Source: Streptomyces sp. NA02950
Lineage (GTDB): Bacteria > Actinomycetota > Actinomycetes > Streptomycetales > Streptomycetaceae
DNA length: 64,000 nucleotides
Direction of reading: 5' to 3'
Assembly: GCF_013364155.1 (NCBI RefSeq)
Contig: NZ_CP054917.1
Span: forward strand, 1 to 64,000
The notes beneath the pieces are model-generated. The model searched no databases. It saw only the letters and a program-made list of their open reading frames with translations, and was not told the origin of the DNA. Made by a program: the position numbers and the translations under genes. Of this stretch, positions 1,415-39,271 are shown one piece after another (positions within the stretch are counted from its first letter, which is position 1; every line of letters begins with the position of its first letter).

Positions 1415-1450
1415 ACACTACTAAAACCCAATACGTAAGCAATAGGTTTC
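1415..1450 (-). promoter_or_regulatory. Shared operator/promoter, copy 1
   Basis: Dyad with left arm AAACCC, core AATACGTAAGCAA and right arm GGTTTC. Read on the minus strand the core supplies a -35 TTGCTT (1437-1442), followed after 16 bp by a -10 TAGTGT (1415-1420). It points at the gene starting at 1340. The same element recurs near 3.4, 14.2, 17.9, 25.8 and 39.2 kb. Confidence 0.85.
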
Positions 1451-1503
1451 ATGGATTGGGTTGCAGGCGAGACTTCTGCAACTCCCGGGACAGGGAGGCG
1501 AGT

Positions 1504-2586
1504 TCAGGCGTCGTCGCCGTCGGCGGGCAGCATTCCGTCGGCCAGGGAGCAGCCGTCACACCCGGCGCCGAGCGCGGGCAGGGTGCCCGGCCCCTGGTGG
1601 GGGCGCGGTTTGCGCTTGGGCGGCCGGGTGAGCGCGTCGCGCACGGCCGTCTCCAGGGCGTCGAAGTCGGCGGTGTCGTCGTCCAGGACCACGCCCGGGC
1701 CGGGTGCGCCGGGCCGCCGGGCCTCCTCGATGACGGAGACGATGGTGGTCGACGGGTTGAAGGGGATGCCCCGGGAGTGCTCGACCTCGGCGTACAGGGC
1801 GGCCAGCCGGGGCCGGCGGGCGACGGCGAGGAGCAGGTCGCGGCGGTTGCTGAAGACGCAGGCCGAGCAGGAGCAGCGGGTGCTGCCTGCCCAGTCCCCG
1901 GCGCCGGGGGCCGAGTCGTAGGCCCAGTGGTGGGGCCAGCCCTCGGCGTCGGTCCACTCCTTGACGAAGGCGGTGGTGTCGCCGTGCGCGGGCAGCCACT
2001 CGTCGACGATCCGGTGGGAGTTGTCGGTGGTGCGCTGCAGCACGGGCCGCTTGCGGCGGTCCGGGCTCTCGTCCGCGCGCAGCCCGAGGACGTTGAGCAT
2101 CCTGGCCGGCCTGCCGTGCGCCTTCTTGAAGTCGCGGGCGGCCTGGCTGAACGCGCCGAAGATGAGCTTGGTCTTCCAGTCCCCGGTGCAGAACCGGGCG
2201 CGGCCGAGCCAGGGCCAGTCCCCTCGTTCGGCGATGAACGTGAGCAGGTCGTACGGGACAGCGTCACGGTGGCGGCGCAGCTCGAGGTGGCGCTCGGGCG
2301 GGACGCCGAGCAACCGGGAGTGTTCGGCGGCCAGTTCGCCGACGCTCGGGTAGCGCACGCCGTCGACCGTGCAGGCCGGCCACTCCATCGGGCCGAGCGA
2401 GGCGTGGACGGTCCAGATCCGGTCCTCGACACCGGCCTGCCGCGCGGCGTCCCTGGTGACCGCGGCGGCCCGCAGGCCGTCCTTGCCGCCGGAGAGGTTC
2501 ACGATGAGGAAGTCCTGCTGTGCCGCCAGCTCCACCGGGTCGATTCCGGTGGAGCTGGCGGCGAACAGGTCCAGCTGGGCCGTCAT
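1504..2586 (-). CDS. PAPS-reductase/PP-loop family protein
   Basis: A 360-residue protein of the adenine nucleotide alpha-hydrolase superfamily that includes phosphoadenosine phosphosulfate reductase and DndC-like enzymes. The PP-loop SGGKDG is at residues 32-37, followed by RFCTGDWKT and a cysteine cluster CSCSACVF that may hold a metal or iron-sulfur cluster. A second CDGC motif is at the C terminus. Family members activate a substrate with ATP for sulfur transfer or reduction; the substrate here cannot be told. No dndA, dndB, dndD or dndE partners are seen, so it is not an obvious DNA phosphorothioation system. The start overlaps the upstream stop (ATGA). It is the last gene of a four-gene operon. 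Confidence 0.8.
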   Translation of the reverse strand: MTAQLDLFAASSTGIDPVELAAQQDFLIVNLSGGKDGLRAAAVTRDAARQAGVEDRIWTVHASLGPMEWPACTVDGVRYPSVGELAAEHSRLLGVPPERHLELRRHRDAVPYDLLTFIAERGDWPWLGRARFCTGDWKTKLIFGAFSQAARDFKKAHGRPARMLNVLGLRADESPDRRKRPVLQRTTDNSHRIVDEWLPAHGDTTAFVKEWTDAEGWPHHWAYDSAPGAGDWAGSTRCSCSACVFSNRRDLLLAVARRPRLAALYAEVEHSRGIPFNPSTTIVSVIEEARRPGAPGPGVVLDDDTADFDALETAVRDALTRPPKRKPRPHQGPGTLPALGAGCDGCSLADGMLPADGDDA

Positions 2587-2804
2587 GCCGCGTCCGGGTC
2601 GCCGAGGCGGATGTCCCAGTCGCCGCCGGGCAGGGGCCTCATCCAGCGGGCCAGGCATGCGCGGGCGAACTCGGCGTCCACCTCGCTGTCGCCCATCTCG
2701 CCCCAGAACTCGACGAGGTTGCCGGCCTGGGCGAGCAGGGCGCGGGCCACGAGCCTCTTCTTCTCGTTCACCCCGGGCGGCGGGGCGGGGGTCGGGGCGT
2801 TCAC
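2583..2804 (-). CDS. Small hypothetical protein
   Basis: 73 residues, GTG start overlapping the preceding stop and ATGA overlap with the following PP-loop gene, so it is translationally coupled on both sides. A Pro-rich first dozen residues lead into a helical, acidic body (GEMGDSEVDAEFARACL). No known domain was recognised. Its position suggests a helper of its neighbours, which is inference. Confidence 0.7.
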   Translation of the reverse strand: MNAPTPAPPPGVNEKKRLVARALLAQAGNLVEFWGEMGDSEVDAEFARACLARWMRPLPGGDWDIRLGDPDAA

Positions 2805-3169
2805 TCGCTGTCCTCCCGGAGGCGGCGAAGGTCGAGGGCCCATCCGATCTGGCCGGTGGCGCGCCGGGTGCCCAGGTGGATCACGCCGGGCATGTAGGCG
2901 TCGCGCAGGGGCCGCCAGTTGTGGAGGCGGTGCGCGTGCAGGGCCGCGATCAGGTCGAGGGCGAAGGGGCTGTGCGGGGCCTCGGAGCGGTAGACGGCCG
3001 TCTCGTGGCCGGGCTGGCCGCTGGCGACCTGGGTGTAGAGGCGTACCTCCTCCTGCCCGGTGGCCACGCTGAGGAGCAGCAGGGCGGTGTCCAGAGGTGC
3101 GGCGTCGGCGGGGAACTCGGCGGCGAGCAGGGCCCGCAGCCGGTCGGTGGGGGTCAGGGCGGCGGTCAC
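2801..3169 (-). CDS. Hypothetical protein
   Basis: 122 residues, GTG start in a GTGA overlap with the upstream gene and GTGA overlap with the next. An N-terminal helical segment (TPTDRLRALLAAEFPA) is followed by a hydrophobic LLLLSVAT strand and a Trp- and His-containing C-terminal half. No conserved family was recognised. It is the second gene of the operon driven from the operator near 3437. Confidence 0.75.
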   Translation of the reverse strand: MTAALTPTDRLRALLAAEFPADAAPLDTALLLLSVATGQEEVRLYTQVASGQPGHETAVYRSEAPHSPFALDLIAALHAHRLHNWRPLRDAYMPGVIHLGTRRATGQIGWALDLRRLREDSE

Positions 3170-3387
3170 CGGGCGGCCCGCCGCTCGACCATGTGCAGCA
3201 GCCAGTCGCGGCCGACGCGGGGGTCGTGGCCGCAGGTGCCGGCGACCTCGCCGTCCGGGCCGTTGGTGATGGAGAGGTACTTGCCCTGCTTGAGCTGGCC
3301 GACCGCGTAACGGATCCGGTCCTCCAGGCGCTCGCGGGCCATCCGTTCAGCGCCGGTCTCCAGCGCGCCGTCGGTGGTGGTCGTCAT
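3166..3387 (-). CDS. Small hypothetical protein, first gene of its operon
   Basis: 73 residues. The ATG at MTTTTDGALE is chosen because it follows GGAAGGGGCCCGGAG-like purine sequence; the upstream in-frame ATG lies inside the operator. The charged helical N terminus (ERMARERLEDRIRYAVGQLK) precedes a Gly/Cys-containing tail. Unknown function. It begins about 40 bp downstream of the -10 at 3428-3433 and overlaps the next gene by four bases. Confidence 0.75.
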   Translation of the reverse strand: MTTTTDGALETGAERMARERLEDRIRYAVGQLKQGKYLSITNGPDGEVAGTCGHDPRVGRDWLLHMVERRAAR

Positions 3388-3427
3388 CTCCGGGCCCCTT
3401 CCGGGCGGGTGTGTCTGCGTCGTCCAC

Positions 3428-3464
3428 ACCGTATTTGAAACCCAATACGTAAGCAATAGCTTTC
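3428..3464 (-). promoter_or_regulatory. Shared operator/promoter, copy 2
   Basis: Arms GAAACCC and GCTTTC around AATACGTAAGCAA. Minus-strand -35 TTGCTT (3451-3456), 17-bp spacer, -10 TACGGT (3428-3433). It drives the four genes from 3387 down to 1504. A divergent plus-strand gene (3619) lies on the other side, so the site could also affect that gene. Confidence 0.85.
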
Positions 3465-3618
3465 AAGGCGCTTTTGATCTTGACTCTCGGGGGCGATCAG
3501 AGCGTTCATGGAGGTGCCCGGGGAACACCGCGAAGCGCACGCGCCACGGGCACCGCAGCACCAGCTGCCCCCGGCCGGGGAGCTCCCGAATGCCCAACTC
3601 CGAAGAAACGAGGACGAC

Positions 3619-4203: not shown

Positions 4204-4216
4204 CGCCCGCCGCCCG

Positions 4217-4246
4217 GGGCGCCCGCCGTACCAACGGCGGGCGCCC
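4217..4246 (+). terminator. Hairpin terminator after the winged-helix gene
   Basis: Perfect 12-bp stem GGGCGCCCGCCG / CGGCGGGCGCCC with a 6-nt loop, 13 bp after the stop at 4203. No U-tract, as usual in Streptomyces. Confidence 0.7.
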
Positions 4247-4272
4247 GGGCCCCCTACGACGAGGAGGTCCTC

Positions 4273-4470: not shown

Positions 4471-4480
4471 CCATCCCGGC

Positions 4481-4519
4481 ACGGCCGGTCACCCCCGGAG
4501 CGGGGCGGTGACCGGCCGT
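4481..4519 (+). terminator. Hairpin terminator
   Basis: 13-bp stem ACGGCCGGTCACC / GGTGACCGGCCGT around a 13-nt loop, just after the stop at 4470. Confidence 0.7.
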
Positions 4520-6596: not shown

Positions 6597-6624
6597 TTGA
6601 CTTTACAACGTGCCGTTGTATTGT
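6597..6624 (+). promoter_or_regulatory. Promoter with TACAACG/CGTTGTA dyad, copy 1
   Basis: -35 TTGACT (6597-6602), 16-bp spacer, -10 TATTGT (6619-6624). The spacer contains the dyad TACAACG-TGC-CGTTGTA (6604-6620). The same dyad sits in the promoter of the gene at 57818, and the two promoters also share the downstream string GAAGAC. A common regulator is likely. Confidence 0.8.
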
Positions 6625-6664
6625 TGTGGGCGTAGGGAAGACCTCACCCACCGAGGAGAAGACG

Positions 6665-6977: not shown

Positions 6978-8006
6978 TCACGCGGTGCGGCGCCCGGCGA
7001 GCGCGGCCGGGCGGACGGTGCCGCGGCCGAAGCGCCGGTTGGCCTTGTCGACGGCCGTCTCGACGCGGCGGGCGTTCTCCTCGGTGGGGTCCAGGGAGAT
7101 CTGCTCGGCGACCTGGTCGGCGTCCAGGAGCTGCTCGGCGCGTACCGTCACGGCGCGCACCCGGGCCCGCTCGAGGTTGAGGCCGTTGAAGATCCGGTAT
7201 GCGCACTCGCGCAGGTCGGCGTCGTGCGCGGTGGCGGCCGGCAGCTTCCGGGAGCGGGAGAGCAGGGACCGGTCGGCGAGGCGCAGCTGGAGCTGCAGGG
7301 CGGTCGCGGCCTGGTCGCGTTCGCGCAGCCTCGCCCCGATGACGACGACCGCGTCGAGGATCGCGGTGCGGATGACGTCGCCGTCCAGGACGTCCCGGTC
7401 GAAGTGCCTGCTCTCGCCGGTGGAGCGGGGCAGCGCGGTCGGGGTGACGCGGCGGTGGTCCAGGCCCCGCGCACGCTGGTGCAGGAGGCGACCCTCCCGG
7501 CCGCCGAGGACGCGCTGGGTGGTGGCGACGGGCAGGGCGGCGAGCGTGCCGATGTAGTGGACGCCGAAGCTGCGCAGCGTCTCCGCCTGGCGCCGGCCGA
7601 TGCCGTAAAGGGCGTCGATGGGCAGCGGGTACAGGAAGTCGGCGACCGCGGCCGGGTCGTCGGCGACGAGCCGGATGCCGTTGCGGACGGGGTGGGCGGA
7701 GGCGGTCGCGGCCAGGGCCCAGTTCGCGGCCACGCCGACGTGGACGTCGACGCCGGTGAGGGCGAGGGTGCGCAGGCGGATGATCTCGGCGAGTTCGTAC
7801 GGGGTGCGCTGGTGCAGGCGCAGCACGCCGGCGACCTCGGCGAGGGCGGCGCCGGGCGGGATGACCTGGACGATCGGGGTGAGCGGCTCGAGGACGTCGA
7901 GCACGGCCCGGTACGCGGGCTCGGGGGTGCCGGGCGGGACGCGCAGGTGCAGCACGGTGGCCCGCCGGGCGGCGGCCTCGTAGCTGTGGGGCGCGTGCGT
8001 GCTCAC
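6978..8006 (-). CDS. Y-family DNA polymerase-like protein, catalytically degenerate (ImuB-like)
   Basis: 342 residues; GTG after GGTGGAGAGG. The overall order matches UmuC/DinB/ImuB. Near residue 90 is a palm segment (VHVGVAANWALAATAS). A helix-hairpin-helix thumb follows (LYGIGRRQAETLRSFGV). The last third is a little-finger domain. The acidic catalytic motifs are missing: the position of DMDxF reads VLHLRVPP, and the expected SxDE site near PGAALAEVAG has no DE pair. This is the pattern of ImuB, a non-catalytic partner of a damage polymerase. A LexA-box-like sequence lies just upstream, fitting SOS control. Confidence 0.8.
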   Translation of the reverse strand: MSTHAPHSYEAAARRATVLHLRVPPGTPEPAYRAVLDVLEPLTPIVQVIPPGAALAEVAGVLRLHQRTPYELAEIIRLRTLALTGVDVHVGVAANWALAATASAHPVRNGIRLVADDPAAVADFLYPLPIDALYGIGRRQAETLRSFGVHYIGTLAALPVATTQRVLGGREGRLLHQRARGLDHRRVTPTALPRSTGESRHFDRDVLDGDVIRTAILDAVVVIGARLRERDQAATALQLQLRLADRSLLSRSRKLPAATAHDADLRECAYRIFNGLNLERARVRAVTVRAEQLLDADQVAEQISLDPTEENARRVETAVDKANRRFGRGTVRPAALAGRRTA

Positions 8007-12841: not shown

Positions 12842-12843
12842 GG

Positions 12844-13746
12844 CTACTTGCTGTGCTCGAGGGCGCCGTGCGGGACGTAGCCCTTGCCGTCGCAGGCGGA
12901 GCAGGCGGCGACGCTGGCCTCAGCCACCTGCTCAAGCCAGTACTCGACCTGCTGCTCCCACTCGGCGAGCGCGGCGTCGTAGTTCTCCCCGTACACGGCG
13001 GCGGGCACCGGAAGGTCGACGCTGCGGTCGACGGTGACCTGGACGGTGCGCCCGGACTTCAGCGGCTGCCCCCTGCGCCCCGTGTTCCGGACGAAGGTGG
13101 TCCTGGGCTGGTCGTAGGGAACGCGGACCGTGATGTGCAGCCCGGGCCTGTCCTTGTAGTCGACGAAGCAGTACTTCACCCGCGGCATCGCCGTGATGAG
13201 CTTCTCCAAGTGCTGCTTCAGGCCCGGAATGTGGCCAGGGAAGAGGTGCCGGTACTCCGCACGCTGGGTCAGCTCGACAGGAAGGGCAGCGCGCCACTGC
13301 GGCTCGTCCGGCGCCGGGGGCTGGCGGCCCTCGAGCAGCATGAACGGCCCCTCGTAGACGTGTTCGACGGGCTCGAGGTCCTCGGTGACGCGCTCGTACA
13401 GGCCCCAGTACTCGTCATGGTCGCCGACGCGCTCGTTGAAGTCCTCGACGCTGAGCTCGGCCGGGTACCGCGTCGACAGCGCCGTGGGGTCGCTCAGCTT
13501 GTAGCGGAGCGTCTTGGGGTTCGGCTGGTAGACGGCGGTGATCCGCTGGGCGTGCCGGTCGGTGACGTACCAGTCGCCCTTGGCGTCGACGAGCGGCACC
13601 AGGCGGTTCATCGGCTCGCCGTCGGCGAAGATGCCGCTGCGCAGTCCGGGGCGCCGCTCGGGCTCGGGCAGGTAGTACGCGAACCGGCCGTCGGGCAGGC
13701 GCAGGGCGTAGCGGGGCAGGGTGGTCACGGGTGCGTGGCCTTTCAT
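12844..13746 (-). CDS. Hypothetical protein with C-terminal zinc motif
   Basis: 300 residues; the ATG overlaps the preceding stop (ATGA). A GTG six codons in, with AAAGG upstream, is an alternative. The first 90 residues are strand-rich with aromatic residues (YALRLPDGRFAYYLPEP). The middle is mixed. The end carries CSACDGKGYVPHG, a DnaJ-like CxxCxGxG half-motif. Function unknown; the motif hints at a metal-bound protein-interaction tail. Confidence 0.8.
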   Translation of the reverse strand: MKGHAPVTTLPRYALRLPDGRFAYYLPEPERRPGLRSGIFADGEPMNRLVPLVDAKGDWYVTDRHAQRITAVYQPNPKTLRYKLSDPTALSTRYPAELSVEDFNERVGDHDEYWGLYERVTEDLEPVEHVYEGPFMLLEGRQPPAPDEPQWRAALPVELTQRAEYRHLFPGHIPGLKQHLEKLITAMPRVKYCFVDYKDRPGLHITVRVPYDQPRTTFVRNTGRRGQPLKSGRTVQVTVDRSVDLPVPAAVYGENYDAALAEWEQQVEYWLEQVAEASVAACSACDGKGYVPHGALEHSK

Positions 13747-14187: not shown

Positions 14188-14224
14188 ACACTAGCTGAAA
14201 CCCAATACGTAAGCAACGGGTTTC
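14188..14224 (-). promoter_or_regulatory. Shared operator/promoter, copy 3
   Basis: Arms GAAACCC and GGGTTTC around AATACGTAAGCAA. Minus-strand -35 TTGCTT (14211-14216), 17-bp spacer, -10 TAGTGT (14188-14193), then CTG. It heads the run of genes from 14081 down towards 9028. Confidence 0.88.
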
Positions 14225-17840: not shown

Positions 17841-17883
17841 GCCAGCTCCTTGGGTGTTTCGCGTGTCTTTGTCGGCACCCCAG

Positions 17884-17919
17884 ACACTACGCGAAACCCA
17901 ATACGTAAGCAATAGATTC
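17884..17919 (-). promoter_or_regulatory. Shared operator/promoter, copy 4
   Basis: Arms GAAACCC and AGATTC (weakest right arm) around AATACGTAAGCAA. Minus-strand -35 TTGCTT (17907-17912), 17-bp spacer, -10 TAGTGT (17884-17889) followed by CTG. It heads the genes from 17840 down to 14295. Confidence 0.87.
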
Positions 17920-17937
17920 AAGGGTTTCGGGGCATGC

Positions 17938-25773: not shown

Positions 25774-25818
25774 CGAATCCTCGATCCGTAGCGGGGGTGT
25801 TCTCTGTCGGCGCTCCAG

Positions 25819-25854
25819 ACACTACGGGAAACCCAATACGTAAGCAAGGGGTTT
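25819..25854 (-). promoter_or_regulatory. Shared operator/promoter, copy 5
   Basis: Arms GAAACCC and GGGGTTT around AATACGTAAGCAA. Minus-strand -35 TTGCTT (25842-25847), 17-bp spacer, -10 TAGTGT (25819-25824) followed by CTGG. It heads about fourteen genes from 25773 to 18036. Confidence 0.88.
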
Positions 25855-25871
25855 GGATTGGGTGGACATGA

Positions 25872-25900
25872 AGAAACCCCCTCCGGGACTCCGGAGGGGG
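25872..25900 (-). terminator. Rho-independent terminator
   Basis: Perfect 10-bp stem CCCCCTCCGG / CCGGAGGGGG with a 4-nt loop, followed on the minus strand by TTTCTT. It ends the gene starting at 26215. Confidence 0.85.
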
Positions 25901-25963
25901 CGGTCGGGCGGCGGCAAGCCTACGAGACGTCAGGGAGCGGGCCAGGAGGGCGGGTTGGACCGG

Positions 25964-26215
25964 CTAGCTGTCCGCCTCCGCGTTCTCGTCCTGGCGCTCG
26001 CCGTGCAGGACGAGCATGTCGGACAGGGACACGAGGTGCCGGCGGCCTCGCTTCCAGATCCTCACGCCGGCGGCCTCCGCGTCGCGCCTGAGCGTGGAGT
26101 GCGAGACGGGATGACCGGTCGGCTGGAAGAACGCGGCTGCGGTGAAGAAGTCGACGAGGTCGTCCGGCGGAGGGGTGGGGGGCTGGGAGGACTGCATTAC
26201 ATAACCCGTCATCAA
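25964..26215 (-). CDS. Small MerR/excisionase-type DNA-binding protein
   Basis: 83 residues. DLVDFFTAAAFFQPTGHP is followed by SHSTLRRDAEAAGVRIWKRG and RRHLVSLSDMLVL. This is the winged-helix layout of AlpA/excisionase or MerR-like helix-turn-helix proteins, in which a turn is followed by a short basic wing. Such proteins bend DNA for recombinases or act as local regulators. No ribosome site is clear; an internal ATG six codons in (MQSSQPP) is also possible. It is isolated by terminators on both sides. Confidence 0.7.
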   Translation of the reverse strand: MMTGYVMQSSQPPTPPPDDLVDFFTAAAFFQPTGHPVSHSTLRRDAEAAGVRIWKRGRRHLVSLSDMLVLHGERQDENAEADS

Positions 26216-27791: not shown

Positions 27792-27810
27792 GTGATTGCC
27801 CCGCAATCAC
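27792..27810 (+). repeat. Partition-site palindrome, copy 1
   Basis: GTGATTGCCCCGCAATCAC, 8-bp arms with CCC centre. First of three copies downstream of parA. Confidence 0.85.
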
Positions 27811-27880
27811 CGAACTCCCCGCCCTTGCCGCGGACTGCGCCACGGCCCGGCCGCCGAAACGACCGGGCCGTGGCGCGTGC

Positions 27881-27899
27881 GTGATTGCGGGGCAATCAC
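27881..27899 (-). repeat. Partition-site palindrome, copy 2
   Basis: GTGATTGCGGGGCAATCAC: same arms, GGG centre, so opposite orientation to copy 1; 70 bp further on. Confidence 0.85.
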
Positions 27900-27941
27900 T
27901 TCCTCGTCCTGCAGGCGACGTTCGCCCCTCTCCCCCCGTGG

Positions 27942-27960
27942 GTGATTGCCCCGCAATCAC
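27942..27960 (+). repeat. Partition-site palindrome, copy 3
   Basis: CCC-centre copy ending four bases from the parA stop. Confidence 0.85.
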
Positions 27961-27964
27961 CCGC

Positions 27965-28816
27965 CTACTTCGAGATCCGCTTGAATCCCAGGCCCTTGGC
28001 CACCGAGAGGTAGTCGGCGGTGGCCTCGCCGGCGCGGTCGAAGTAGAGCAGCGGCTTCTGGTGGGCGTATGACTCCGGGATCTTCGTCGAGCGGCGGATG
28101 CCCGGCAGGACCAGGTCCCCGTATGCCTCCTCCACCATCTTCTTGCCGTCGTCCCAGACAGCTCCCTGGGAGCGGGTGGTGGGAACGTCCACCAGGAGCA
28201 CGCCGACCAACTCGGCGTGGGCTCCGTACTCGCCCCAGGTCTCCTTCACCAGCTCGATCTTCTGCTCGATGCGGGTGAGGCCGCGGAGTTCCTTCAGGCC
28301 GGGCTTGATGCATGCGACGATCTCGTCACTGGCCAGGATGGCGCCGATCACGACCAGGCCGAGGTTCCCGGGGCAGTCGATGATGATGACGTCGTAGTCG
28401 CCCTTGATGGGGGCGAGCAGGTTCTTCAGCCACAGCTCGCGGGCCATGGCCGTCGTCAGATGCTGCTCGGCGTTCTCCATCTCGTGCGATCCGAGCACCA
28501 GATACAGGTTGTCGATGACCTTCGTGTCGGGCCCGCCGAGCGGACCGGCGAGGGCCGGCACGATCGCCTCCGAGAGCTTCACGCTCTTGTCGGTGAGGCA
28601 GTCATAGATGGTCTTCTGGTCCTCGAGCTGGTCGGGGAAGGCGTAGCCGAGCTGGTACGACGCGTCGCACTGGTCATCGCCGTCGACGACCAGAACCTTC
28701 CAGCCGAACTCGGCCAGCTGCGCGCCGAGGTTCACGCCTGAGGTGCTCTTGCCGGACCCCCCGACCTGGTTGGTCATCGAGATGATCCGGGGAACGCGTT
28801 CTGCCTGGACGGTCAT
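27965..28816 (-). CDS. parA: ParA-family partition ATPase
   Basis: 283 residues; ATG at MTVQAERVPRI after GGAGATCTCC. The P-loop TNQVGGSGKST is at residues 15-25, followed by switch residues in VVDGDDQCDAS and Walker B VIIIDCPGNLGL near residue 135. This is the cytoplasmic ATPase that moves plasmid copies with ParB bound to parS. Oddly, the signature Lys of the deviant Walker A (usually KGG) is Val18, while the catalytic K23 remains. Palindromes flank it at 27942 and 28830; the latter lies just 14 bp upstream of the start, so ParB may repress it. Confidence 0.93.
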   Translation of the reverse strand: MTVQAERVPRIISMTNQVGGSGKSTSGVNLGAQLAEFGWKVLVVDGDDQCDASYQLGYAFPDQLEDQKTIYDCLTDKSVKLSEAIVPALAGPLGGPDTKVIDNLYLVLGSHEMENAEQHLTTAMARELWLKNLLAPIKGDYDVIIIDCPGNLGLVVIGAILASDEIVACIKPGLKELRGLTRIEQKIELVKETWGEYGAHAELVGVLLVDVPTTRSQGAVWDDGKKMVEEAYGDLVLPGIRRSTKIPESYAHQKPLLYFDRAGEATADYLSVAKGLGFKRISK

Positions 28817-28829
28817 GGAGATCTCCACA

Positions 28830-28848
28830 GTGATTGCCCCGCAATCAC
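28830..28848 (+). repeat. Partition-site palindrome, copy 4
   Basis: CCC-centre copy 14 bp upstream of the parA start, positioned to act as operator as well as ParB site. Confidence 0.85.
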
Positions 28849-28984
28849 GCACGGGATCCTGGCGGGGGAGTGGCGGAGCACCAGGAGGCATCGTGCCGGC
28901 GTGTGAAGGGCTGAGTGAGTACGAGTTCCTGCCGTGTCGTCCGCCTGAGCCGTCAGGTCCGCTGACGGAACATCGGGGAGTGAA

Positions 28985-29003
28985 GTGATTGCCCCGCAAT
29001 CAC
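28985..29003 (+). repeat. Partition-site palindrome, copy 5
   Basis: CCC-centre copy between parA and parB, in the non-coding gap. Confidence 0.85.
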
Positions 29004-29089
29004 CCGCGTGCGCGGGGCCGACGCGGTGAGAGCGTGGCAGGCACGGTAGGAAGGGGAATGCTGGGGCGCACGTTATCGCGCCAGGCAGG

Positions 29090-29134
29090 AAAAACGCCAG
29101 TCGCCCCGCCGAGAAATCACTCGACGAGGCGACT
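29090..29134 (-). terminator. Terminator after parB
   Basis: Minus-strand stem AGTCGCC / GGCGACT enclosing a longer loop, followed a few bases later by TTTTT. It separates parB from parA. Confidence 0.65.
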
Positions 29135-29153
29135 CGTGGAAAGCGGCGGCGCT

Positions 29154-30416
29154 TCAGTCGCTCAGGATGAGCTCCTGCAGCTCCTCGAACTCGGCAGGGG
29201 AGAGGCGCTCCTTGAGACCGGTGTAGATGTCCTTCACCGTGGTCACGGCGATGACGCCCCGGTCCGAGACCGTGGCAACCGTCCCCGCAGGCTGCTGATT
29301 CTCCGTTTCGGCGGACGACTGCGCACCCCCGTTGGAGCCGGTGGTGGTGGTATCCGGCAGGTTCTGTGGCGGCTCTCCGGTTCCCGTCTCGGGCTTCTCG
29401 GAGGAATCCCCGGTCTGCTCGCCCTCCCCTGTCTCGGTGTTCCGCTGGGAGGGGAACGTGTTCTGCTCGGTGCCCGCGGGCTTGTTCTCCCCGCCGCCTT
29501 CAGCGCCGTTGCCGGACTCCTGCTGCTGGCCGGTGCCGCCGTCCCCAGTGGTCTCCGGCTGGGACTGCTGCGCGGAGCCGCTCTCGCCGGCCCCGGTCTC
29601 CTGCTGGTTGGTGCCGGACTCCGGCTCCTTGGTCTGCTCGGACGGAAGTTGCTGCTGCTCCAGCGGCACCTTGCTCTTGACGATGACCTCGGCGTCGTCG
29701 AAGGACAGCGTGCCGTCGACGTACGCCTGCTGGAGGTCCTCGCGCAGGCCGGCGAGAACGGTGGCGGCCTCCTTGATGGGCAGCAGCCGTTCCCCGCCGA
29801 ACTCGAACTCGAGGCCCCGCTGCCGGCACCAGTGGTCGATGACCGCCTGCTGCAGCGGCTCGATGAGGCTCAGGAGCTTGATCTTGTGGGAGATGGCCGT
29901 CTGCGACGTCCCCTTCCCGAGGCGCTTCGCGAGCTCCCGCTGAGAGATGCCCAGCTCGTCGAGCGCAGCCTGGTAGTCGGCACCCTGCTCAATGGGGTCC
30001 AGTCCCAGCCGCTGCTCGTTCTCCTTCATCGCGGCGATCCGCAGCGAGCCGTTCTCCGACACGGTCTTGCGGATGAAGACCGGCACCTTCTCCAGCCCCC
30101 GCAGTTTCGCGGCGGCCAGTCGGCGGTGGCCGTGCAGAACGACGAAGGGCTTGCCGGACTTCGCGACGTGCTCGCGGTGCTTCGGATAGTGCTTGACGTA
30201 CGCCTCGGCAGTGACGACGGTCAGCGCCTGGACGACTCCGTCTTCGTCGTAGGAGTCGGCAAGCCCCTCGACGTTACGGAGCCGCTTGCGGCCGTTCTCT
30301 GGGCTGGGCAGCAGGTCCTCAACGGGAAGTTCAGACGTCCCCTTGTTGAACAGGCGCTGTTGTTCTGCTGCCGCTCGGTGGGTACCGAGACTGACGTTGT
30401 TTGGCATTCCGGCCAT
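29154..30416 (-). CDS. parB: ParB-family centromere-binding protein
   Basis: 420 residues; ATG at MAGMPNN after GGAGACCCG. Near residue 30, VEDLLPSPENGRKRL begins the ParB N-terminal domain. HGHRRLAAAKL is the CTP-binding/arginine patch (box II). MKENEQRLGLDPIEQG follows. The HTH is ISQRELAKRLGKGTSQTAIS near residue 165. A low-complexity Gln/Glu/Gly/Thr linker of about 130 residues then joins a short C-terminal dimerisation segment (DIYTGLKERLSPAEFEELQ). It probably binds the 19-bp palindromes around this locus. The long linker is unusual. parA and parB are in separate units, the parA gene being downstream of a terminator. Confidence 0.93.
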   Translation of the reverse strand: MAGMPNNVSLGTHRAAAEQQRLFNKGTSELPVEDLLPSPENGRKRLRNVEGLADSYDEDGVVQALTVVTAEAYVKHYPKHREHVAKSGKPFVVLHGHRRLAAAKLRGLEKVPVFIRKTVSENGSLRIAAMKENEQRLGLDPIEQGADYQAALDELGISQRELAKRLGKGTSQTAISHKIKLLSLIEPLQQAVIDHWCRQRGLEFEFGGERLLPIKEAATVLAGLREDLQQAYVDGTLSFDDAEVIVKSKVPLEQQQLPSEQTKEPESGTNQQETGAGESGSAQQSQPETTGDGGTGQQQESGNGAEGGGENKPAGTEQNTFPSQRNTETGEGEQTGDSSEKPETGTGEPPQNLPDTTTTGSNGGAQSSAETENQQPAGTVATVSDRGVIAVTTVKDIYTGLKERLSPAEFEELQELILSD

Positions 30417-30586
30417 CGGGTCTCCGGGGGAGGTGGTGCTGATGTAGTGGGTCTCAGCCGCGAGCTTATCCGTCGGCACGGGGCGGCCGGAGGGGTGGCG
30501 TCCGATACGGGCGCGCACTGTGTCCGAGATGAGCAGAAATGCACCCTGCGGCGGTGGGTCCGGCGGGAAGTCGTGGACGGCGCAAG

Positions 30587-30605
30587 GTGATTGCGGGGCA
30601 ATCAC
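30587..30605 (-). repeat. Partition-site palindrome, copy 6
   Basis: GGG-centre copy upstream of parB; it also holds the stop codon of the small gene at 30602. Confidence 0.85.
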
Positions 30606-30850
30606 TGCGGAGCGAGATCGGCGGCCTCGGCTGGCTCGTCCGCGCTCAGTATGCCCTCTGCAGCGGCGCGTTGGGGCGCAGACACCGCGACGAGGTAGAC
30701 CGGCTCCTGGAATATCTGCTCCGGGATGGCCGGCCGGGGGTAGGTGTCGCGCGGCCGGGGTGATTGCGGGGCAATCACTGCACCGGGACGGCGGGGGTCA
30801 TGCAACGGCGCGTTCTGCACTCGGGGTCCTTCTCTCTCGGCCCGCGTCAT
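30602..30850 (-). CDS. Small hypothetical protein spanning partition sites
   Basis: 82 residues; ATG overlaps the stop of the DciA gene (TGATG). The reading frame passes through palindrome copy 7, giving VIAPQS, and its stop lies in copy 6. The rest (QIFQEPVYLVAVSAPQRAAA) looks coding. It may be a real small protein or a decayed one tolerated because the palindromes must be kept. No function known. Confidence 0.55.
   Translation of the reverse strand: MTRAEREGPRVQNAPLHDPRRPGAVIAPQSPRPRDTYPRPAIPEQIFQEPVYLVAVSAPQRAAAEGILSADEPAEAADLAPQ
30760..30778 (-). repeat. Partition-site palindrome, copy 7
   Basis: GGG-centre copy inside the small gene at 30602-30850. Confidence 0.85.
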
Positions 30851-31635
30851 CAAGGCGCGGGGTCGCTGGGTGTGGAAGCACGGGCTGCGGCGGCCTTCTG
30901 CCGCCGGGCCTCTCGCAGGGCCCGGGCGTGGGTGTCGGCCTTGCGCGCCCTGTCCTCCTCGAGGCTCTGCTGCAGGTACTGCGCCTCGACGTGGTCGTCC
31001 GGGTCCGCCTGGATCCGCATCCGGGTGAGCGGCACGTACGGGGTGCCGCGGGCCGCGTCGCGCTGGGCCTTCTCTTCCCGCAGCCGCTCCCGGACCTGGG
31101 CGTAGTCGGACGTCGGTTGAGTCCCGGGCGGCTGGGAGCGGGTCGGCGGGGAAGGCGCGGGCTCGGCAGCGGACGGTTCCGGTGCGGACGCCGGTCGGTG
31201 GACTCCCTTGCGGACCTTGATGGTGGTGAGCGTGCCCGGCTTCAGCGCACGGTTCACGTCGTCGCACAGCTGCCGGGAGACCAGTGACAGCATCCGTGCC
31301 CAGGAGTCCGACTCGCACACGACGGTCAGGGTCTTCGTCGTCTCGTCGTACTTCACGGCGTGCCAGTGGGCTGCGCGGTCCTCGCCGATGATCGACGGCC
31401 ACTGGTTGAGGAGGCTGCCGCCGTCGGCGGCTTCTTCCCAGCCGTTGTCGACGAGCCACTGCTTCCAGATGCTGCCCAGGGACAACGGGTCGCGTCCGTC
31501 GTAGCGGCGCCGGCGTATGGTCCGCTTCGGCTTGGGCGCCTGCTGATTCCCCTGCCGACGGGCCGCCTCCTTCGCCTGGCGCAGGGCAATGCGTGCCAGG
31601 TCGGCACCGCTTGCGGGAGGCACATCCGTCGTCAT
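30850..31635 (-). CDS. DciA-like (DUF721) replicative-helicase loader
   Basis: 261 residues; ATGA overlap with the upstream gene. Residues about 45-140 match DUF721. SIWKQWLVDNGWEEAADGGS is followed by WPSIIGEDRAAHWHAV, LTVVCESDSWARMLSLV and CDDVNRALKPGTLTTIKV. DciA proteins of actinobacteria load DnaB-type helicase; chromosomal copies lie beside recF and gyrB. A plasmid copy next to a candidate initiator suggests a plasmid-specific loading step. The C-terminal third is a charged linker and coiled region (YLQQSLEEDRARKADTHA). Confidence 0.85.
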   Translation of the reverse strand: MTTDVPPASGADLARIALRQAKEAARRQGNQQAPKPKRTIRRRRYDGRDPLSLGSIWKQWLVDNGWEEAADGGSLLNQWPSIIGEDRAAHWHAVKYDETTKTLTVVCESDSWARMLSLVSRQLCDDVNRALKPGTLTTIKVRKGVHRPASAPEPSAAEPAPSPPTRSQPPGTQPTSDYAQVRERLREEKAQRDAARGTPYVPLTRMRIQADPDDHVEAQYLQQSLEEDRARKADTHARALREARRQKAAAARASTPSDPAP

Positions 31636-31949
31636 CGCGCCCCCGGGAGTGATTGCCCCGCAATCACCTCGGCCGACGCGGGGGAGGGTGATTGCCCCGC
31701 AATCACTCCGGGCCCGGCCTCCGGGTCGCCCTCCAGGGCTCGAGGTGATTGCGCGGCAATCACCGGCGGCGGGGCTGCGGCCAGCACGGTGGGGCAGCGC
31801 CACTCGCTCCGGCAGGCCGAGCACACGGTCCGCCCCTCGGTTTCGACGGGGACGTGCAGGGCGAGCGCGGCACGCAGGCGGCCCAGTTCGGCGAGAAGGT
31901 CGTCCAGATCAGGGTCCGTTATCGAGCTGGCCGTGAGGTGGCGGGACAT
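31632..31949 (-). CDS. Small Cys-containing protein with palindrome-encoded tail
   Basis: 105 residues; ATG after CAGGAGAGAC. Residues 1-60 look genuine: LDDLLAELGRLRAALALHVP, then TVCSACRSEWRCP, a possible zinc knuckle. The last 45 residues read through three palindrome copies (VIAAQSP, VIAGQSP, VIAGQSL), so the C-terminal tail is a by-product of DNA sites. It is coupled to the DciA-like gene by ATGA and lies 23 bp after the candidate initiator. Confidence 0.7.
   Translation of the reverse strand: MSRHLTASSITDPDLDDLLAELGRLRAALALHVPVETEGRTVCSACRSEWRCPTVLAAAPPPVIAAQSPRALEGDPEAGPGVIAGQSPSPASAEVIAGQSLPGAR
31649..31667 (+). repeat. Partition-site palindrome, copy 8
   Basis: CCC-centre copy in the 3' end of the small gene at 31632. 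Confidence 0.85.
31688..31706 (+). repeat. Partition-site palindrome, copy 9
   Basis: CCC-centre copy, 20 bp after copy 8. Confidence 0.85.
31745..31763. repeat. Partition-site palindrome, copy 10 (variant centre)
   Basis: GTGATTGCGCGGCAATCAC; intact arms, GCG centre. Confidence 0.8.
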
Positions 31950-31972
31950 GTGGAGTCTCTCCTGACGCGCTG

Positions 31973-33325
31973 TCAGTGCAGGCGGATGCGGGGGTTGTTG
32001 GCGTTGGCGTGGAGCTTCTGGCACAGGTCGACCAGCTCCGGCCCGTACAGCGCGACCGCGACCTGCGGGCCGGCCAACTCGTACGTGGCCAGCACCAGCC
32101 CGGGGTCGCCGTCGTACTTGTAGGCGGCCCACGCCTCGGCCCGCATTCGCTTACGGGTCTCTTCGTCGAGGTCCTCGAGGCCCGCACACTGCGGGTAGTC
32201 GTCGTCCTCGGCCTGCCGCTCGCGGGTCTCCTGCACCGCCGCGGCGAAGTCGGGATTCGGCGCGACCGCGTTGGCCCAGTCCTGCTGCAGCTGGGCATCG
32301 CCTTCGCGGACGGCCCGCTCCCGCAGCAGCCAGCTAGCGATGTACGTGTGGGGCCGGGTCGGCCGCCAGTCCAGGCCGGCCACGACCGAGGGCGAGATGT
32401 CCCGCAGCCAGACGTCGACCTGCTGCTCGGTGCATCCCTCGGCGAGCTTGTCGACCAGCACCCACGACAACTCGCTGATCTTGGCTCGCTGGGTCCAGTT
32501 GTGCAGCGGGCGCAGTCGGCGAGCGAGACGGTCGGCGGCCTGGAACAGGGCAGCGGTCACCTTGTGGCCCAGGGTGCTCGTCTTCGGCGGCTTGATCCTC
32601 GAGGCCCGCGCGCTGCGCGTAGCTTTCTCTTTCCCACCATCAACATCAGCAGGTACGTGGGCGGAACCACCACGAGAAGGGGGCGCAAGGCGCCCCGCAG
32701 CCGACTCCTTCGCCTTCGCCACAGCCTGCTCCCGGCCGGCCTCCGTGAAGCCGATGACCGTCGCCTCGTAGCCGGTGCCTCGTAGCCGGTGGCCCTTGGC
32801 GGCGTCGTACGCGAGCGGGATGGTCGCGCCGTAGATCGTGGCGGTGGCGGTGTACTTCCGGCCCGGCAGACGCAGGTTGCGCTTGGAACCGTGCTCGAGC
32901 CAGACCAGGGCGCCGAGTTCGCGGAGGTACGCCACGTGCCGCTTCACCGTGGACTTGTCCACCTTCAGCTTGGCCGCGGTGCCCAGGAGGTCGTACAGGA
33001 CGATGCCCCGCCGGTAGTCCATGCGGGCGGCCAGGTCCATCGCCACGCGCATTGTGGTGAGGGTGGCCTTCGGGTGGAGCTTCGCTTCGAAGATCAGCCA
33101 GTCCAGCGCGACCAGCCAGTCGCGCGGCTCGCAGCGGCGCGAGGCGGTGTGCATGACGTCCTGGGCGCTGCCGCGGACCAACTCGAAGCGGTCGCGCGCG
33201 GCCTCGGCCGACGGCGTGGAGGGGTCAGGTTTGGGCGCAGATGTGTCGCCCGCAGGGGTGGTGAAGGGCTCGACACTCCCCATTTGGGCAGGGTCGAGCT
33301 GACAAACGGCAGCGCTGTGCTGCAT
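31973..33325 (-). CDS. Winged-helix protein, candidate plasmid replication initiator
   Basis: 450 residues from the ATG at MQHSAAVCQL (a start eleven codons earlier is possible). Near residue 125, RGIVLYDLLGTAAKLKVDKS, then TVKRHVAYLRELGALVWLE and RKYTATATIYGATIPLAYD, form a winged helix with a long wing. Charged linkers follow. The C-terminal helical region has ISELSWVLVDKLAEGCTEQQ and THTYIASWLLRER-like helices. Layout and position (rep-like HTH upstream of DciA, next to parAB and palindromes) fit an initiator of actinobacterial plasmids. No primase or helicase motif is seen, so this is inference; it could be a regulator. Confidence 0.6.
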   Translation of the reverse strand: MQHSAAVCQLDPAQMGSVEPFTTPAGDTSAPKPDPSTPSAEAARDRFELVRGSAQDVMHTASRRCEPRDWLVALDWLIFEAKLHPKATLTTMRVAMDLAARMDYRRGIVLYDLLGTAAKLKVDKSTVKRHVAYLRELGALVWLEHGSKRNLRLPGRKYTATATIYGATIPLAYDAAKGHRLRGTGYEATVIGFTEAGREQAVAKAKESAAGRLAPPSRGGSAHVPADVDGGKEKATRSARASRIKPPKTSTLGHKVTAALFQAADRLARRLRPLHNWTQRAKISELSWVLVDKLAEGCTEQQVDVWLRDISPSVVAGLDWRPTRPHTYIASWLLRERAVREGDAQLQQDWANAVAPNPDFAAAVQETRERQAEDDDYPQCAGLEDLDEETRKRMRAEAWAAYKYDGDPGLVLATYELAGPQVAVALYGPELVDLCQKLHANANNPRIRLH

Positions 33326-34107
33326 TATGGGCTCGTCGTCCTCTCCGGAGGGCGGCAAAACGAGACCCCTCCTGGGGGCTCATTTGCCTTTCGAAGCACG
33401 AAGGGGGCGTGAAAACGGCCTCTCGGAAGTGCTTCTGAAGGTGGGTGTTTGAGCAGTAACCCGCCCCTGTGATGGGCGGTGAAGTCCCGAACGGCCGAGT
33501 AGCGACCGGGCGATCGGGCCCTAGTGGGAAGTGCAGGCGGGCACCTGAACTGACCACCGTTGGAAGTGGCCGCGCGTGGCTCGACTGGTTGACGGGCAAT
33601 CAACTGGTCGGCGAACAGCGGCCGGCGGAGGGTTCCGTGATTGCGGGGCAATCACCTCCGCGGCAGACCTACGTCATGCCAGCCCCCCTTCGGGGGAGGA
33701 CCTGGCCATCCCTTTTCCGCTGCGAGATCACGCCGAAGACGGCGCCGCCGGTGCGGAATCGAGGAAGAAGAACAGTCCGAGACATGCCAAGACCTGCCCT
33801 CGGGCGTGGCGCGTATGCGCTGCCCGGGTGGGTCCTCATGTGCCGTGCACTGGATGCACGGGTACGATGGCTCATGCCTCGGCCGTCCCAACACGGTCTC
33901 GGCGCTTTTTCGGCCCTCGTTACCCCGGCGTCCACTCCGGGGGTGGCGGGGGCCATAAGCGTTTTCGGACTAGTGCGGCCACCGGATCCGTGATCCCCAA
34001 ATATGGCCAGGGCTGAGCCTACCTCTGCGACCGCGTGGATTGCGACCACCTTCACTCCGACGTGTCGCATCGACTTTTCGCAGGTGTTCACGGCGTTTTC
34101 CTTCCTG
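33326..34107. other. Non-coding region, candidate origin
   Basis: About 780 bp with no convincing gene (frames here lack third-position GC bias). It contains palindrome copy 11 (33637-33655), a small C5-TTCG-G5 hairpin near 33681-33695, and repeated short T-rich words (GCTTTTTCGG, GCGTTTTCGG, GACTTTTCGC, GCGTTTTCC) between 33900 and 34100. The drop in GC with recurring TTTTCG words, upstream of the candidate initiator, is origin-like but unproven. Confidence 0.4.
33637..33655 (-). repeat. Partition-site palindrome, copy 11
   Basis: GGG-centre copy upstream of the candidate initiator. Confidence 0.85.
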
Positions 34108-37521: not shown

Positions 37522-38468
37522 TACGCCGCCCCCTGCTGGGCGTTGGCCTGCTGGCTGCGGGCGTACGCCCGGGAGAGCCGGAAGGAGACGAGGTCGCCGA
37601 GGGTCGTCAGCTTCCCCTGGTGGTCGATGGCGGCCATGCCCGCCGCCCGGCACTCCTGGATCTCGCGGGCCAGCTCGGACAGCGACTCGTACGTGGCCTC
37701 GCCGTCGTACGCGCGGTGCAGCATGTCGGTGCGCGGAGCACGGTCGACTCCTTCGTCGGCCCACTTCCTCAGCGCGGCCCCGACGGCGACGGCGTCCGTG
37801 AGGACCTCGTCGGCGAGGGCGGGCGCGGCGGACTTGGTGACCACCATCTCGTGGGTCGGCAGCAGGGACGCCGCGAAGTCGACGTCGTACTCGAGGCCGT
37901 CGCGGGCCTCGGCGCGCATACTCACCCGGGTGGGCACCGTGCGCCCGGCGGCGTCGGTGGCCAGAACGGCTTCCAGGCGGTTACGCAGGACGCCGATGAC
38001 GTGGCCGGGGAAGCACTGCACCGCCTCGATCATCTGCCGTTCCACGGGCCGGACTTCGTCCCAGGCCGCATCCCTGCCGCCCTTGCCGCCGCGCTGGGCG
38101 ACCTGGTCGCGGACGCCCTCGGGGCCGCTCCAGAACGCGGACCAGCTGGCGAGCACGACCACGTCGTATGAGGCTGCGGCGTACAGCGCCAGGCAGAGGT
38201 CCTTCGGGTCGAACGAGGTCATCTCCGTGACGTCGAACGTGACCTCGTCGGCGTACTGCCGGGACCTGCCACGCTCGGTGTCGATGACCGCGATGGTGTC
38301 GCCCAGGGCGGAGGCCATCCGCAGAGCGGAGATCAACCGGTTGGAACCAGGCGGGCCGTCGAGGAGCGCACGTACGGGACGGGCTTCCTTCGCGGCCTGC
38401 GCGAACTGAAATTGGGTGTGCGGAACCAGGCCGCCCGCGGATGCGGGGGCCTCGGCGGCGGTCGCCAT
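37521..38468 (-). CDS. RecA-like P-loop ATPase fold with degenerate Walker A
   Basis: 315 residues. LLDGPPGSNRLISALRMASA at residues about 35-54 aligns with the Walker A of phage Sak4-type/RecA-like ATPases, but GSGKT reads GSNRL, losing the Lys. DTIAVIDTERGRSRQYADE follows as in Sak4, then a Walker B-like YDVVVLASWSAFW and RNRLEAVLATDAAGRTVPTR. Sak4 proteins assist single-strand annealing. The lost Lys suggests loss or change of ATP use. The C-terminal end is helical. It is the second gene under operator copy 6. Confidence 0.7.
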   Translation of the reverse strand: MATAAEAPASAGGLVPHTQFQFAQAAKEARPVRALLDGPPGSNRLISALRMASALGDTIAVIDTERGRSRQYADEVTFDVTEMTSFDPKDLCLALYAAASYDVVVLASWSAFWSGPEGVRDQVAQRGGKGGRDAAWDEVRPVERQMIEAVQCFPGHVIGVLRNRLEAVLATDAAGRTVPTRVSMRAEARDGLEYDVDFAASLLPTHEMVVTKSAAPALADEVLTDAVAVGAALRKWADEGVDRAPRTDMLHRAYDGEATYESLSELAREIQECRAAGMAAIDHQGKLTTLGDLVSFRLSRAYARSQQANAQQGAA

Positions 38469-38554
38469 GAGGTGGGTCTCCTATGCGGTTGTTCTGTCGC
38501 GGAGGGCCGGGCCGGTGTCGGCTTCCAGCCCGCAGGGCGCCCCCGCGCGGCGTC

Positions 38555-39097
38555 TTACTCCTGGTCCAGCTCGCCGGCCAGGTAGTCCTCACGCAGGTAC
38601 TGGGTGATCACCCGGGACGGATTGACGAGGAACTTCAGGCGCTCCTTGTCGGCCTTGCAGCGGGCCTCGATCGGCGCCCAGTCGTCGTCGCTCATGCGCA
38701 GGCTGGCGCTCGGCAGCGACTTGACCGGCTTCTCGCCCGCCGCCCGGCGCGGTGCCCGCACCGGTTTGACCGGCGTGATGCCGCCCTCGAGGTACTTCGT
38801 GAACCCGCCGCGCAGCACGTCGGCGAGGCTGCGGTGTTCGCGCTTGGCCTTCTTCTCCGCCGCGTCCTTCACGTCCTGCGGGATGTACAGCGGCCGGGAC
38901 GGCAGGTCTCCCGAGTCGTCGCGCACCGCCCACACCGCGCGGCCGGCGGCCCGGGCGAGCGCGCCGAACGCATCGGCGCTGCCCTCGAGCACCCCGAAGT
39001 CGGTCTTCAACTTGGCGACGCCGCCCTCGGCGATCACCTCGTAGGACGTCTTGTCGGTCAGGCGGAACACGGGGACGGAGGGCTGCTCGTCAGCCAC
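38555..39097 (-). CDS. Putative ribbon-helix-helix-like protein, first gene of operon
   Basis: 180 residues; GTG at VADEQPSVPVF after GAGGATCAACC. Two similar units, PLYIPQDVKDAAEKKAKREH and the residues after it (near residue 75), and SLRMSDDDWAPIEARCKADK and after (near 130), each start with a short strand and continue as two helices ending in YLEGG or YLREDY. This fits a duplicated RHH-type unit. DNA binding is plausible; it might act on the operators, being the first gene behind copy 6. Confidence 0.7.
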   Translation of the reverse strand: MADEQPSVPVFRLTDKTSYEVIAEGGVAKLKTDFGVLEGSADAFGALARAAGRAVWAVRDDSGDLPSRPLYIPQDVKDAAEKKAKREHRSLADVLRGGFTKYLEGGITPVKPVRAPRRAAGEKPVKSLPSASLRMSDDDWAPIEARCKADKERLKFLVNPSRVITQYLREDYLAGELDQE

Positions 39098-39234
39098 GGC
39101 GGTTGATCCTCTCGACGGCGGGCCGCGCCGGACCCTGACCGGCGCGTCGGCGTACGACATGTACGACCTCACTTTCGCAGAACCGTGCCGGAGGTCCCGG
39201 TGGTGCGTGCTGCACCAACCGTCCCGGCGGCCCC

Positions 39235-39271
39235 ACGATAACTAAAACCCTATACGTAAGCAATGGGTTTT
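39235..39271 (-). promoter_or_regulatory. Shared operator/promoter, copy 6
   Basis: Arms AAAACCC and GGGTTTT around TATACGTAAGCAA (one core change). Minus-strand -35 TTGCTT (39258-39263), 17-bp spacer, -10 TATCGT (39235-39240). It heads the genes from 39097 to 34108; the plus-strand genes begin just beyond it, so it may act divergently. Confidence 0.85.

Follow-up and report, generated by a model that had tools for sequence, protein, structure and literature searches.

The window analyzed here is the first 64,000 bases of C2, a contig of 151,949 bp in the two-contig genome of Streptomyces sp. NA02950, the other contig being 9.6 Mb. It carries a repeated dyad, motif A, at the heads of blocks of minus-strand genes. 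A sequence-only reading had placed six copies of one operator-promoter between 1.4 and 39.2 kb, and all six were found there, with the core AATACGTAAGCAA exact at 1430, 3444, 14204, 17900 and 25835 and carrying one mismatch at 39251. These are the only window matches to the core at up to three mismatches, and 0 of 100 shuffles reached six (shuffle mean, 1.01). As had been proposed, the copies lie at gene heads: all six are intergenic and share one orientation, and a minus-strand gene, as placed by a separate gene caller (hexamer model), starts 69 to 166 bp from each TTGCTT. The accompanying estimate of about forty genes was too low, since the gene caller counted 50 minus-strand and 3 plus-strand genes behind the six sites, over 39 kb; this total is of genes lying behind the copies, and transcript extents form no part of it. 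Rarity in other DNA, a check set by the same reading, was also borne out, as all 8 matches in the genome at up to one mismatch fall on C2 and 0 on the 9.6-Mb contig. C2 as a whole holds eight strong and two degenerate copies; beyond the window, the strong ones are at 140,353 and 149,146 and the degenerate ones at 71,041 (plus strand) and 117,938. No copy was found in the structural region of C2 (approximately 82 to 103 kb), so A is probably not a late switch. The features are collected in Table 1.

Table 1. Features of the window and of C2 (positions are those of the window unless C2 is named).
Feature	Position	Strand	Remarks
A operator, 28-bp imperfect dyad	1423..1450	-	TTGCTT = -35; -10 TAGTGT at 1415-1420, 16-bp spacer; heads gene 279-1340
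A operator/promoter	3437..3464	-	-10 TACGGT, 17-bp spacer; heads genes 3387 to 1504
A operator/promoter	14197..14224	-	-10 TAGTGT, 17-bp spacer; heads genes 14081 to 4720, three plus-strand genes among or beyond them
A operator/promoter	17893..17920	-	-10 TAGTGT, 17-bp spacer; heads genes 17840 to 14295
A operator/promoter	25828..25855	-	-10 TAGTGT, 17-bp spacer; heads genes 25773 to 18036; just behind g40
A operator/promoter	39244..39271	-	-10 TATCGT, 17-bp spacer; heads the block g52...parB, parA...g40
g52, apparent tandem ribbon-helix-helix (Arc-like) protein, 180 amino acids	38555..39097	-	first gene behind the 39.2-kb operator; favored regulator
g40, 77 amino acids, helix-turn-helix by reading	25964..26197	-	0 Pfam families; last gene of the 39.2-kb block; rival regulator
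Terminator-like hairpin of the preceding block	25876..25901	-	just before the 25.8-kb operator; 1 of 12 found in 20 kb (shuffles, 6.1)
Palindrome TGATTGCNNNGCAATCA cluster	27793..33654	.	among parA, parB, dciA and rep-like genes; parS-like, distinct from A
B copies outside the window	C2 103,136-112,845 and 140,858-150,553		12 of the 14 B hits in C2

The architecture of the motif was derived from 27 sites collected at up to three mismatches in C2 and two relatives, a Streptomyces diastatochromogenes element (D) and an IMG/VR record (U). Bases 4-10 and 14-19 of TTGCTTACGTATWGGGTTT were invariant in all 27. The promoter layout that had been claimed was confirmed in the window, where TTGCTT is followed after 16 to 17 bp by TAGTGT (four copies), TACGGT (one) or TATCGT (one), and TANNNT lay 16 to 18 bp past TTGCTT at 25 of the 27 sites. 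A generic sigma-70 scan, which requires TTGACA/TATAAT-like hexamers, listed none of the six A promoters. The description of GAAACC/GGTTTC-type arms around the core held in part: GGGTTT was present at all 27 sites, but AAACC stood opposite it at only 13, including four of the six in the window. Rather than flanking the core, the symmetry reaches into it; its best center falls between bases 6 and 7 of TTGCTTACGTAT, with a mean of 8.1 of 14 pairs, the next best center having 6.0. The result is a 28-bp imperfect dyad, larger than first described, of which the 1.4-kb copy, GAAACCTATTGCTT|ACGTATTGGGTTTT, is an example. Read outward from the center, the arms are of the types AAGCAAYRGGTTTC and ACGTATTGGGTTTC, the left arm being loose; their profiles resemble each other (0 of 500 column permutations match as well), and the half-sites are of the types GCAATRGGTTTC and GTATTGGGTTTC. 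The dyad lies across the -35 and spacer of a promoter of the form TTGCTT-N16-18-TANNNT, and the inner half of one arm forms the -35, which would explain both the asymmetry of the operator and its single direction.

A site over the -35 and spacer occupies the classical position for repression by occlusion. A could also be read as the promoter class of a phage-specific activator or sigma factor, which would switch the blocks on, not off. The invariance from the -35 through the spacer exceeds the needs of a host promoter, and a sigma-70 family gene is annotated in CP058980 and a sigma-H gene in ZL12, both of which are distant relatives of C2. The dyad symmetry and host-type -10, together with the occlusion position, argue instead for a dimeric protein on a host promoter and make an activator or dedicated sigma factor improbable.

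Judged from its genes alone, C2 is a Streptomyces phage-plasmid of the ZL12/pCQ4 class. Its major capsid protein shares 52% identity with its counterpart in Streptomyces phage ZL12, also known as plasmid pZL12, and 69% with that of pCQ4; the portal (57%) and terminase (58%) also match those of pCQ4 by tblastn, so that the orthologous capsid, portal and terminase defining the class are all present. Portal, terminase, parA, parB, a DciA-like gene and a rep-like gene are common to C2 and pCQ4. C2 forms a contig of its own with ParA and ParB matches, as befits a separate circular parA/parB replicon. A Streptomyces muensis relative (M) continues across the contig ends of C2, where g192 and g0 adjoin, indicating that C2 is circular or circularly permuted. 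C2 (152 kb), U (142 kb), D (140 kb) and M (a contig of 111 kb) form one group. The capsid of C2 is matched by 45 plasmid records, 35 of them from Streptomyces. In the part of the source consulted, pSLE1 is described as homologous and syntenic to pZL12, and the cited title on pZL12 names a plasmid/lytic phage cycle (PMC4487206).

Within this group, A sites at up to three mismatches numbered 9 in M, 9 in D and 8 in U, with one more on another S. muensis contig. The proteins of D and U are mostly about 50 to 95% identical to those of C2, some lower, and the A sites are kept at matching places with similar flanks, including the counterpart of the degenerate copy at C2 117,938. The 13-bp core is identical in most copies, as it would be if a single promoter fragment had recently been duplicated with no regulator in common; that origin is very improbable, because D and U have the set at corresponding sites and the C2 copies have little in common beyond the dyad and -10. 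Among 199 sampled Streptomyces genomes, three matched A at up to one mismatch, namely that of C2 itself and two with single armless hits. Of the 22 stretches that a genome scan for A returned, S. muensis and S. diastatochromogenes accounted for 12; Streptomyces sp. MUM 2J and nine others, each with a single hit lacking arms and -10, were set aside together with four virus contigs. The A spelling was absent at up to three mismatches from pCQ4, CP109240 and a Kitasatospora plasmid (Kit).

Dyads of other spellings occupy the matching place in distant phage-plasmids. The comparison set comprised C2 and 21 other elements with an orthologue of g52, the gene that comes first behind the 39.2-kb copy; M, being near-identical to C2, was excluded from element counts. 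Inspection showed 21 of these 22 elements to have a dyad, or its core, upstream of the g52 orthologue; outside the C2 group, they include pCQ4, CP109240, Kit, G313, G388, G378, G318, G280, G344, CP107843, G251 and G319. Long dyads, defined by 14-bp arms with 13 or more pairs, numbered 0 to 7 per element in a scan of 16 elements, and in pCQ4, CP109240, G313 and G388 such a dyad, of near-perfect symmetry, stands 148 to 213 bp upstream of g52. The sequence CATACTCCATTGCG-NNN-CGCAATGGAGTATG occurs four times in pCQ4 and five times in CP109240, and Kit has eight CATAAACAACTTNC...GCAAGTTGTTTATG-like sites; in these three elements a minus-strand gene comes next beyond each site. The spellings CCATAACCTATTG...CAATAGGTTATGG in G313, CCATATTCTGTTGC...GCAACAGAATATGG in G388, CTTACCTGTTGC...GCAACAGGTAAG in G378 and CCCATTGCTTAGCAAT in G318 each recur with variations. 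The shared theme is GCAA inside, approximately five variable bases, and T(A)TG or TTTC outside; the inner bases of one arm read GTAT in C2, D and U, GAAG in Kit, and ACAA in G313 and pSAM1.

Six further phage-plasmids, ZL12 included, were fetched later from capsid matches, and their g52 orthologues were assigned by gene order. The g52 profile matched all of these with E values from 8e-23 to 7e-11, and by eye a TTGC/GCAA-type dyad was present no more than 260 bp upstream in each; an automated core rule recovered five of the six, pSAM1 having TTGC...ACAA. ZL12 and CP109520 hold four dyad copies each and CP058980 five, against 0 to 1 in Markov-shuffled copies, and the ZL12 half-sites GCAATACGTTTC and GCAATAGGTTCC each differ at one of 12 bases from the GCAATAGGTTTC of the 1.4-kb copy. 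At least three sites or half-sites of the same type were seen in 17 of the 22 elements. A looser rule, TTGC-N1-8-GYAW within 700 bp, was satisfied in 14 of the first 16 elements versus 3 to 13% of random stretches; this rule was written after the sites had been seen, and 13 of the 14 hits are at the dyad, that in Kit lying elsewhere. A second conserved place adjoins g40, behind which a dyad, often followed by TANNNT, stands in 14 of 15 elements (the exception being CP032230); the 25.8-kb copy is this site. Thus, the scan of the whole replicon and of other plasmids that the sequence-only reading had proposed yielded further copies on C2, the same motif in close relatives and other spellings farther off.

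Several results weigh against a common operator family. The second arm is poor in CP107843, G251 and G319, and G295 has no clear dyad upstream of g52, another TTGC motif recurring there three times. A plain palindrome score singled out only five of the first 16 upstream regions. Under the rule TTGC-N0-7-GCAA with three of five flanking pairs, pSAM1, G319, G313 and G295 had zero sites, and the hits in C2, D, U and Kit were all parS-like or unrelated. In pSAM1, pSLE1, CP032230, G280 (a partial contig) and G295, fewer than three copies were seen, and the similarity between Kit and A half-sites is weak (p 0.35 and 0.03).

Outside the comparison stand G333, which was dropped for a weak match (3e-4) and a nonmatching upstream region, and the weak hits G023, G032, G516, G530 and G539. 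The g52 orthologue of G378 (contig C2 of G378, approximately 74,888-75,600) is split over two reading frames, with an operator-like dyad still upstream. Several g52 orthologues, such as those of ZL12, pSAM1 and CP109520, have an extra half-site-like GCAAT word shortly before the ribosome-binding site. A small WYL-annotated gene runs divergently to the g52 orthologue in CP107843, pSAM1, pSLE1 and CP058980, where the dyad region may thus serve the two genes. Transcript leaders just past the -10 (window approximately 25797-25812 and 17862-17877) have a GCCGACAAC(G)-like sequence, found at copies in C2, pCQ4, Kit, G313, G388 and G378.

Motif A is not the only repeated dyad on the element. A second one, B, of 29 bp and approximately CAACNTTACAACG-NNN-CGTTGTATAGTTG, gave 14 hits each in C2, D and U at up to nine mismatches (shuffles, 0 to 1) and none in six other elements scanned. 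Two copies fall in the window (6598-6626 and 57753-57781), and 12 of the 14 C2 copies lie at 103 to 113 kb and 140 to 151 kb; most hold a TATAGT-like -10 inside the dyad. B was considered as a relative of A and rejected, the half-sites not being similar. The element therefore has at least two operator systems, and the description of A as a single switch was too strong, B heading other genes. The gene first behind the 103.1-kb B copy (103,315-103,569) is small and helix-turn-helix-like by eye. A third repeat, the palindrome TGATTGCNNNGCAATCA, is a probable parS array; it also occurs at window 40040 and 58249 and at C2 149,214, and it is common to pCQ4, CP109240, U and Kit. The possibility that A is itself the ParB/parS site was rejected, because it is this other palindrome that gathers around parAB and recurs in pCQ4.

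Two proteins had been named as candidate regulators of A, those encoded at 38555 (g52) and 3619. The former is now favored, for its Arc-like family, its tandem ribbon-helix-helix model and its place as first gene behind the operator; the latter is a MarR-like winged-helix gene, for which tblastn gave matches in D, M and U and none in pCQ4, CP109240 or the searched half of Kit. The g52 protein matches an "Arc-like repressor" family (phrog_6506). Its AlphaFold2 model has two strand-helix-helix repeats (E67-70, H74-86, H91-103 and E131-134, H137-154, H160-172) and its closest folds in comparison are those of F-plasmid relaxosome chains, AvtR and single-chain Arc. Apparently, then, g52 is a tandem ribbon-helix-helix protein, and in some relatives it is longer and apparently four-repeat. 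The fold is predicted with a mean pLDDT (predicted local distance difference test score) of 76 and a pTM (predicted template modeling score) of 0.56, values that count against this reading. Pfam reported no ribbon-helix-helix domain in the window g52 and RHH_1 in one of 25 family members (E 0.0023); a sequence comparison with the Protein Data Bank gave one chain only (E 0.58), and tblastn found no match to g52 in the phage collection, even though this includes ZL12, in which a profile identifies an orthologue.

Covariation between operator and regulator was measured with half-sites picked by hand. Operator distance followed g52 distance (rho 0.26, p 0.004 in 20 elements; rho 0.21, p 0.05 in 16 nonredundant ones). 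It did not track capsid, terminase, GntR, ParA, ParB, DciA, rep-like protein or the other of two WhiB proteins (p 0.09 to 0.54). Less favorably for g52, it also tracked g40 (0.36), a tail protein (0.29), g41 (0.23), portal (0.21) and one WhiB protein (0.21), and in the same 15 elements g40 (rho 0.364) did as well as g52 (0.357). Covariation was therefore rejected as proof for g52, and g40 remains a real rival. The same regulon could be read by g40, by the GntR protein (C2 72,878-73,558) or by a WhiB protein. In favor of g40, besides its covariation and its adjoining operator, tblastn recovered it from 15 of 20 elements; WhiB genes lie within controlled blocks, and the one that tracks the operators does so at p 0.035. 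Set against these points, no C2 copy has g40 as the gene next behind it, Pfam gives g40 no match, GntR distances do not follow the operators (rho -0.02, 12 elements), and g52 stands first behind the operator in 21 of 22 elements, so that a reader other than g52 is unlikely.

Taken together, the sequence comparisons suggest that A is probably the operator-promoter of an element-wide, autoregulated tandem ribbon-helix-helix repressor regulon in a phage-plasmid of the ZL12/pCQ4 class, with g52 the predicted regulator. A dyad over the -35 and spacer is the layout expected of a repressor site. In the proposed mechanism, the main sigma factor of the host would read the A promoter, and the gene behind the 39.2-kb copy (38555-39097) would make a repressor that binds A and closes down the promoter of its own gene along with the other A promoters, affecting approximately 50 window genes; in the plasmid state, this repression would set replication, partition and the expression of early genes. 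Each g52 chain would place two ribbon-helix-helix repeats, folded as a pseudo-dimer, on one asymmetric half-site, so that two chains fill the dyad, while four-repeat relatives would fill it with one chain. Between lineages the middle of the half-site has been altered at kept operator positions, which would render them blind to one another in the manner of heteroimmune phages.

The original view of A as a phage or plasmid operator-promoter regulon is thus well supported by its conservation in relatives and by the dyads at matching places; its "early-gene" part is unproven, as the 39.2-kb block holds parA, parB, dciA and a rep-like gene. The same gene content and layout would fit rep/par control, in a plasmid copy-number or maintenance circuit of the KorA/KorB or omega type instead of a lysogeny switch. 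Such a circuit, which is compatible with a g52-read repressor regulon, is possible if rather unlikely: most controlled genes scanned had no match or were phage-type. No A copy stands directly before the structural block, so neither a lysogeny nor a maintenance function explains everything. A further point against control of the whole block by g52 is that the gaps at parA/parB and the rep-like gene, of 326 to 1,294 bp, could hold promoters of their own. By analogy with known phage systems, the A regulon may have a lysogeny or immunity function.

Other features of the A-headed blocks and their surroundings were recorded. An intrinsic terminator before every A copy was considered and rejected, as hairpin energies at ten A sites (-15 to -36) overlap the background (mean, -21.7); only the 25.9-kb hairpin is listed as a terminator near A copies. 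A Y-family (IMS) DNA polymerase-like gene lies at 6978-8006 within an A-controlled block, and the stretch 12844-13746 has a weak, below-cutoff Pfam match to Gad1 (Gabija anti-defence 1). Behind the degenerate copy at C2 117,938 is a gene that by eye is cytochrome-P450-like (C2 116,530-117,717), with no tblastn match in D, M or U. A lone tRNA gene (52818-52891, plus strand) stands outside the A-headed region.

The closest known parallel is found in cluster A mycobacteriophages such as L5 and Bxb1. As described in the parts of the sources consulted, these carry many copies of one site per genome, oriented with transcription, with diverged site/repressor pairs in heteroimmune groups; the sites are asymmetric 13-mers, more than 20 per genome and mostly off promoters, and are bound by a monomeric helix-turn-helix (HTH) repressor (PMC6550527, PMC9283540). 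Like these stoperators, A is repeated over the element, oriented with transcription and diverged between related elements; unlike them, the sites here are dyads of 28 to 33 bp, number 8 to 10 in C2 and stand in promoter position in six of six window copies, and the candidate repressor is a ribbon-helix-helix protein. Among ribbon-helix-helix proteins, Arc and Mnt are regulators of phage P22, and TraY of the F plasmid is a tandem-repeat relaxosome protein. g52 differs from these and from AvtR in having two or, in relatives, apparently four repeats per chain, an extra N-terminal part and element-wide sites. IncP KorA/KorB and pSM19035 omega are autoregulated control proteins near par genes that act on several promoters, and by this description, not by sequence, the putatively autoregulated g52, near par genes and with several promoters, resembles them. 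ZL12, pCQ4, pSLE1 and pSAM1 share with C2 a capsid match, a g52 orthologue and an upstream dyad; the C2 group is larger and has its own operator spelling and the dyad class B. The core AATACGTAAGCAA, searched as literature text, returned only papers unrelated by title. A pIJ101 protein is reported to bind a conserved palindrome (PMC4170104). In the literature searched, which did not include the original pZL12 description, no operator or repressor for this phage-plasmid class was found. Multi-site repressor regulons and heteroimmunity are already known in kind; a tandem ribbon-helix-helix, promoter-embedded, lineage-rewritten operator set for this phage-plasmid class did not turn up in the same searches.

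More tentatively, we propose that Streptomyces phage-plasmids may share an undescribed, element-wide immunity or incompatibility code, in which a single-chain two- or four-repeat ribbon-helix-helix repressor would read half-sites of approximately GCAA-N5-T(A)TG or TTTC that also form the -35, with N5 rewritten between lineages at kept operator positions to give many natural repressor-operator pairs orthogonal to one another. If true, this would supply the missing switch for the common phage-plasmids with this capsid and provide matched protein/operator pairs for the study of how repressor specificity evolves. The orthogonal, promoter-embedded operators would be usable in Streptomyces, and tandem ribbon-helix-helix chains would serve as master regulators of phage-plasmids.

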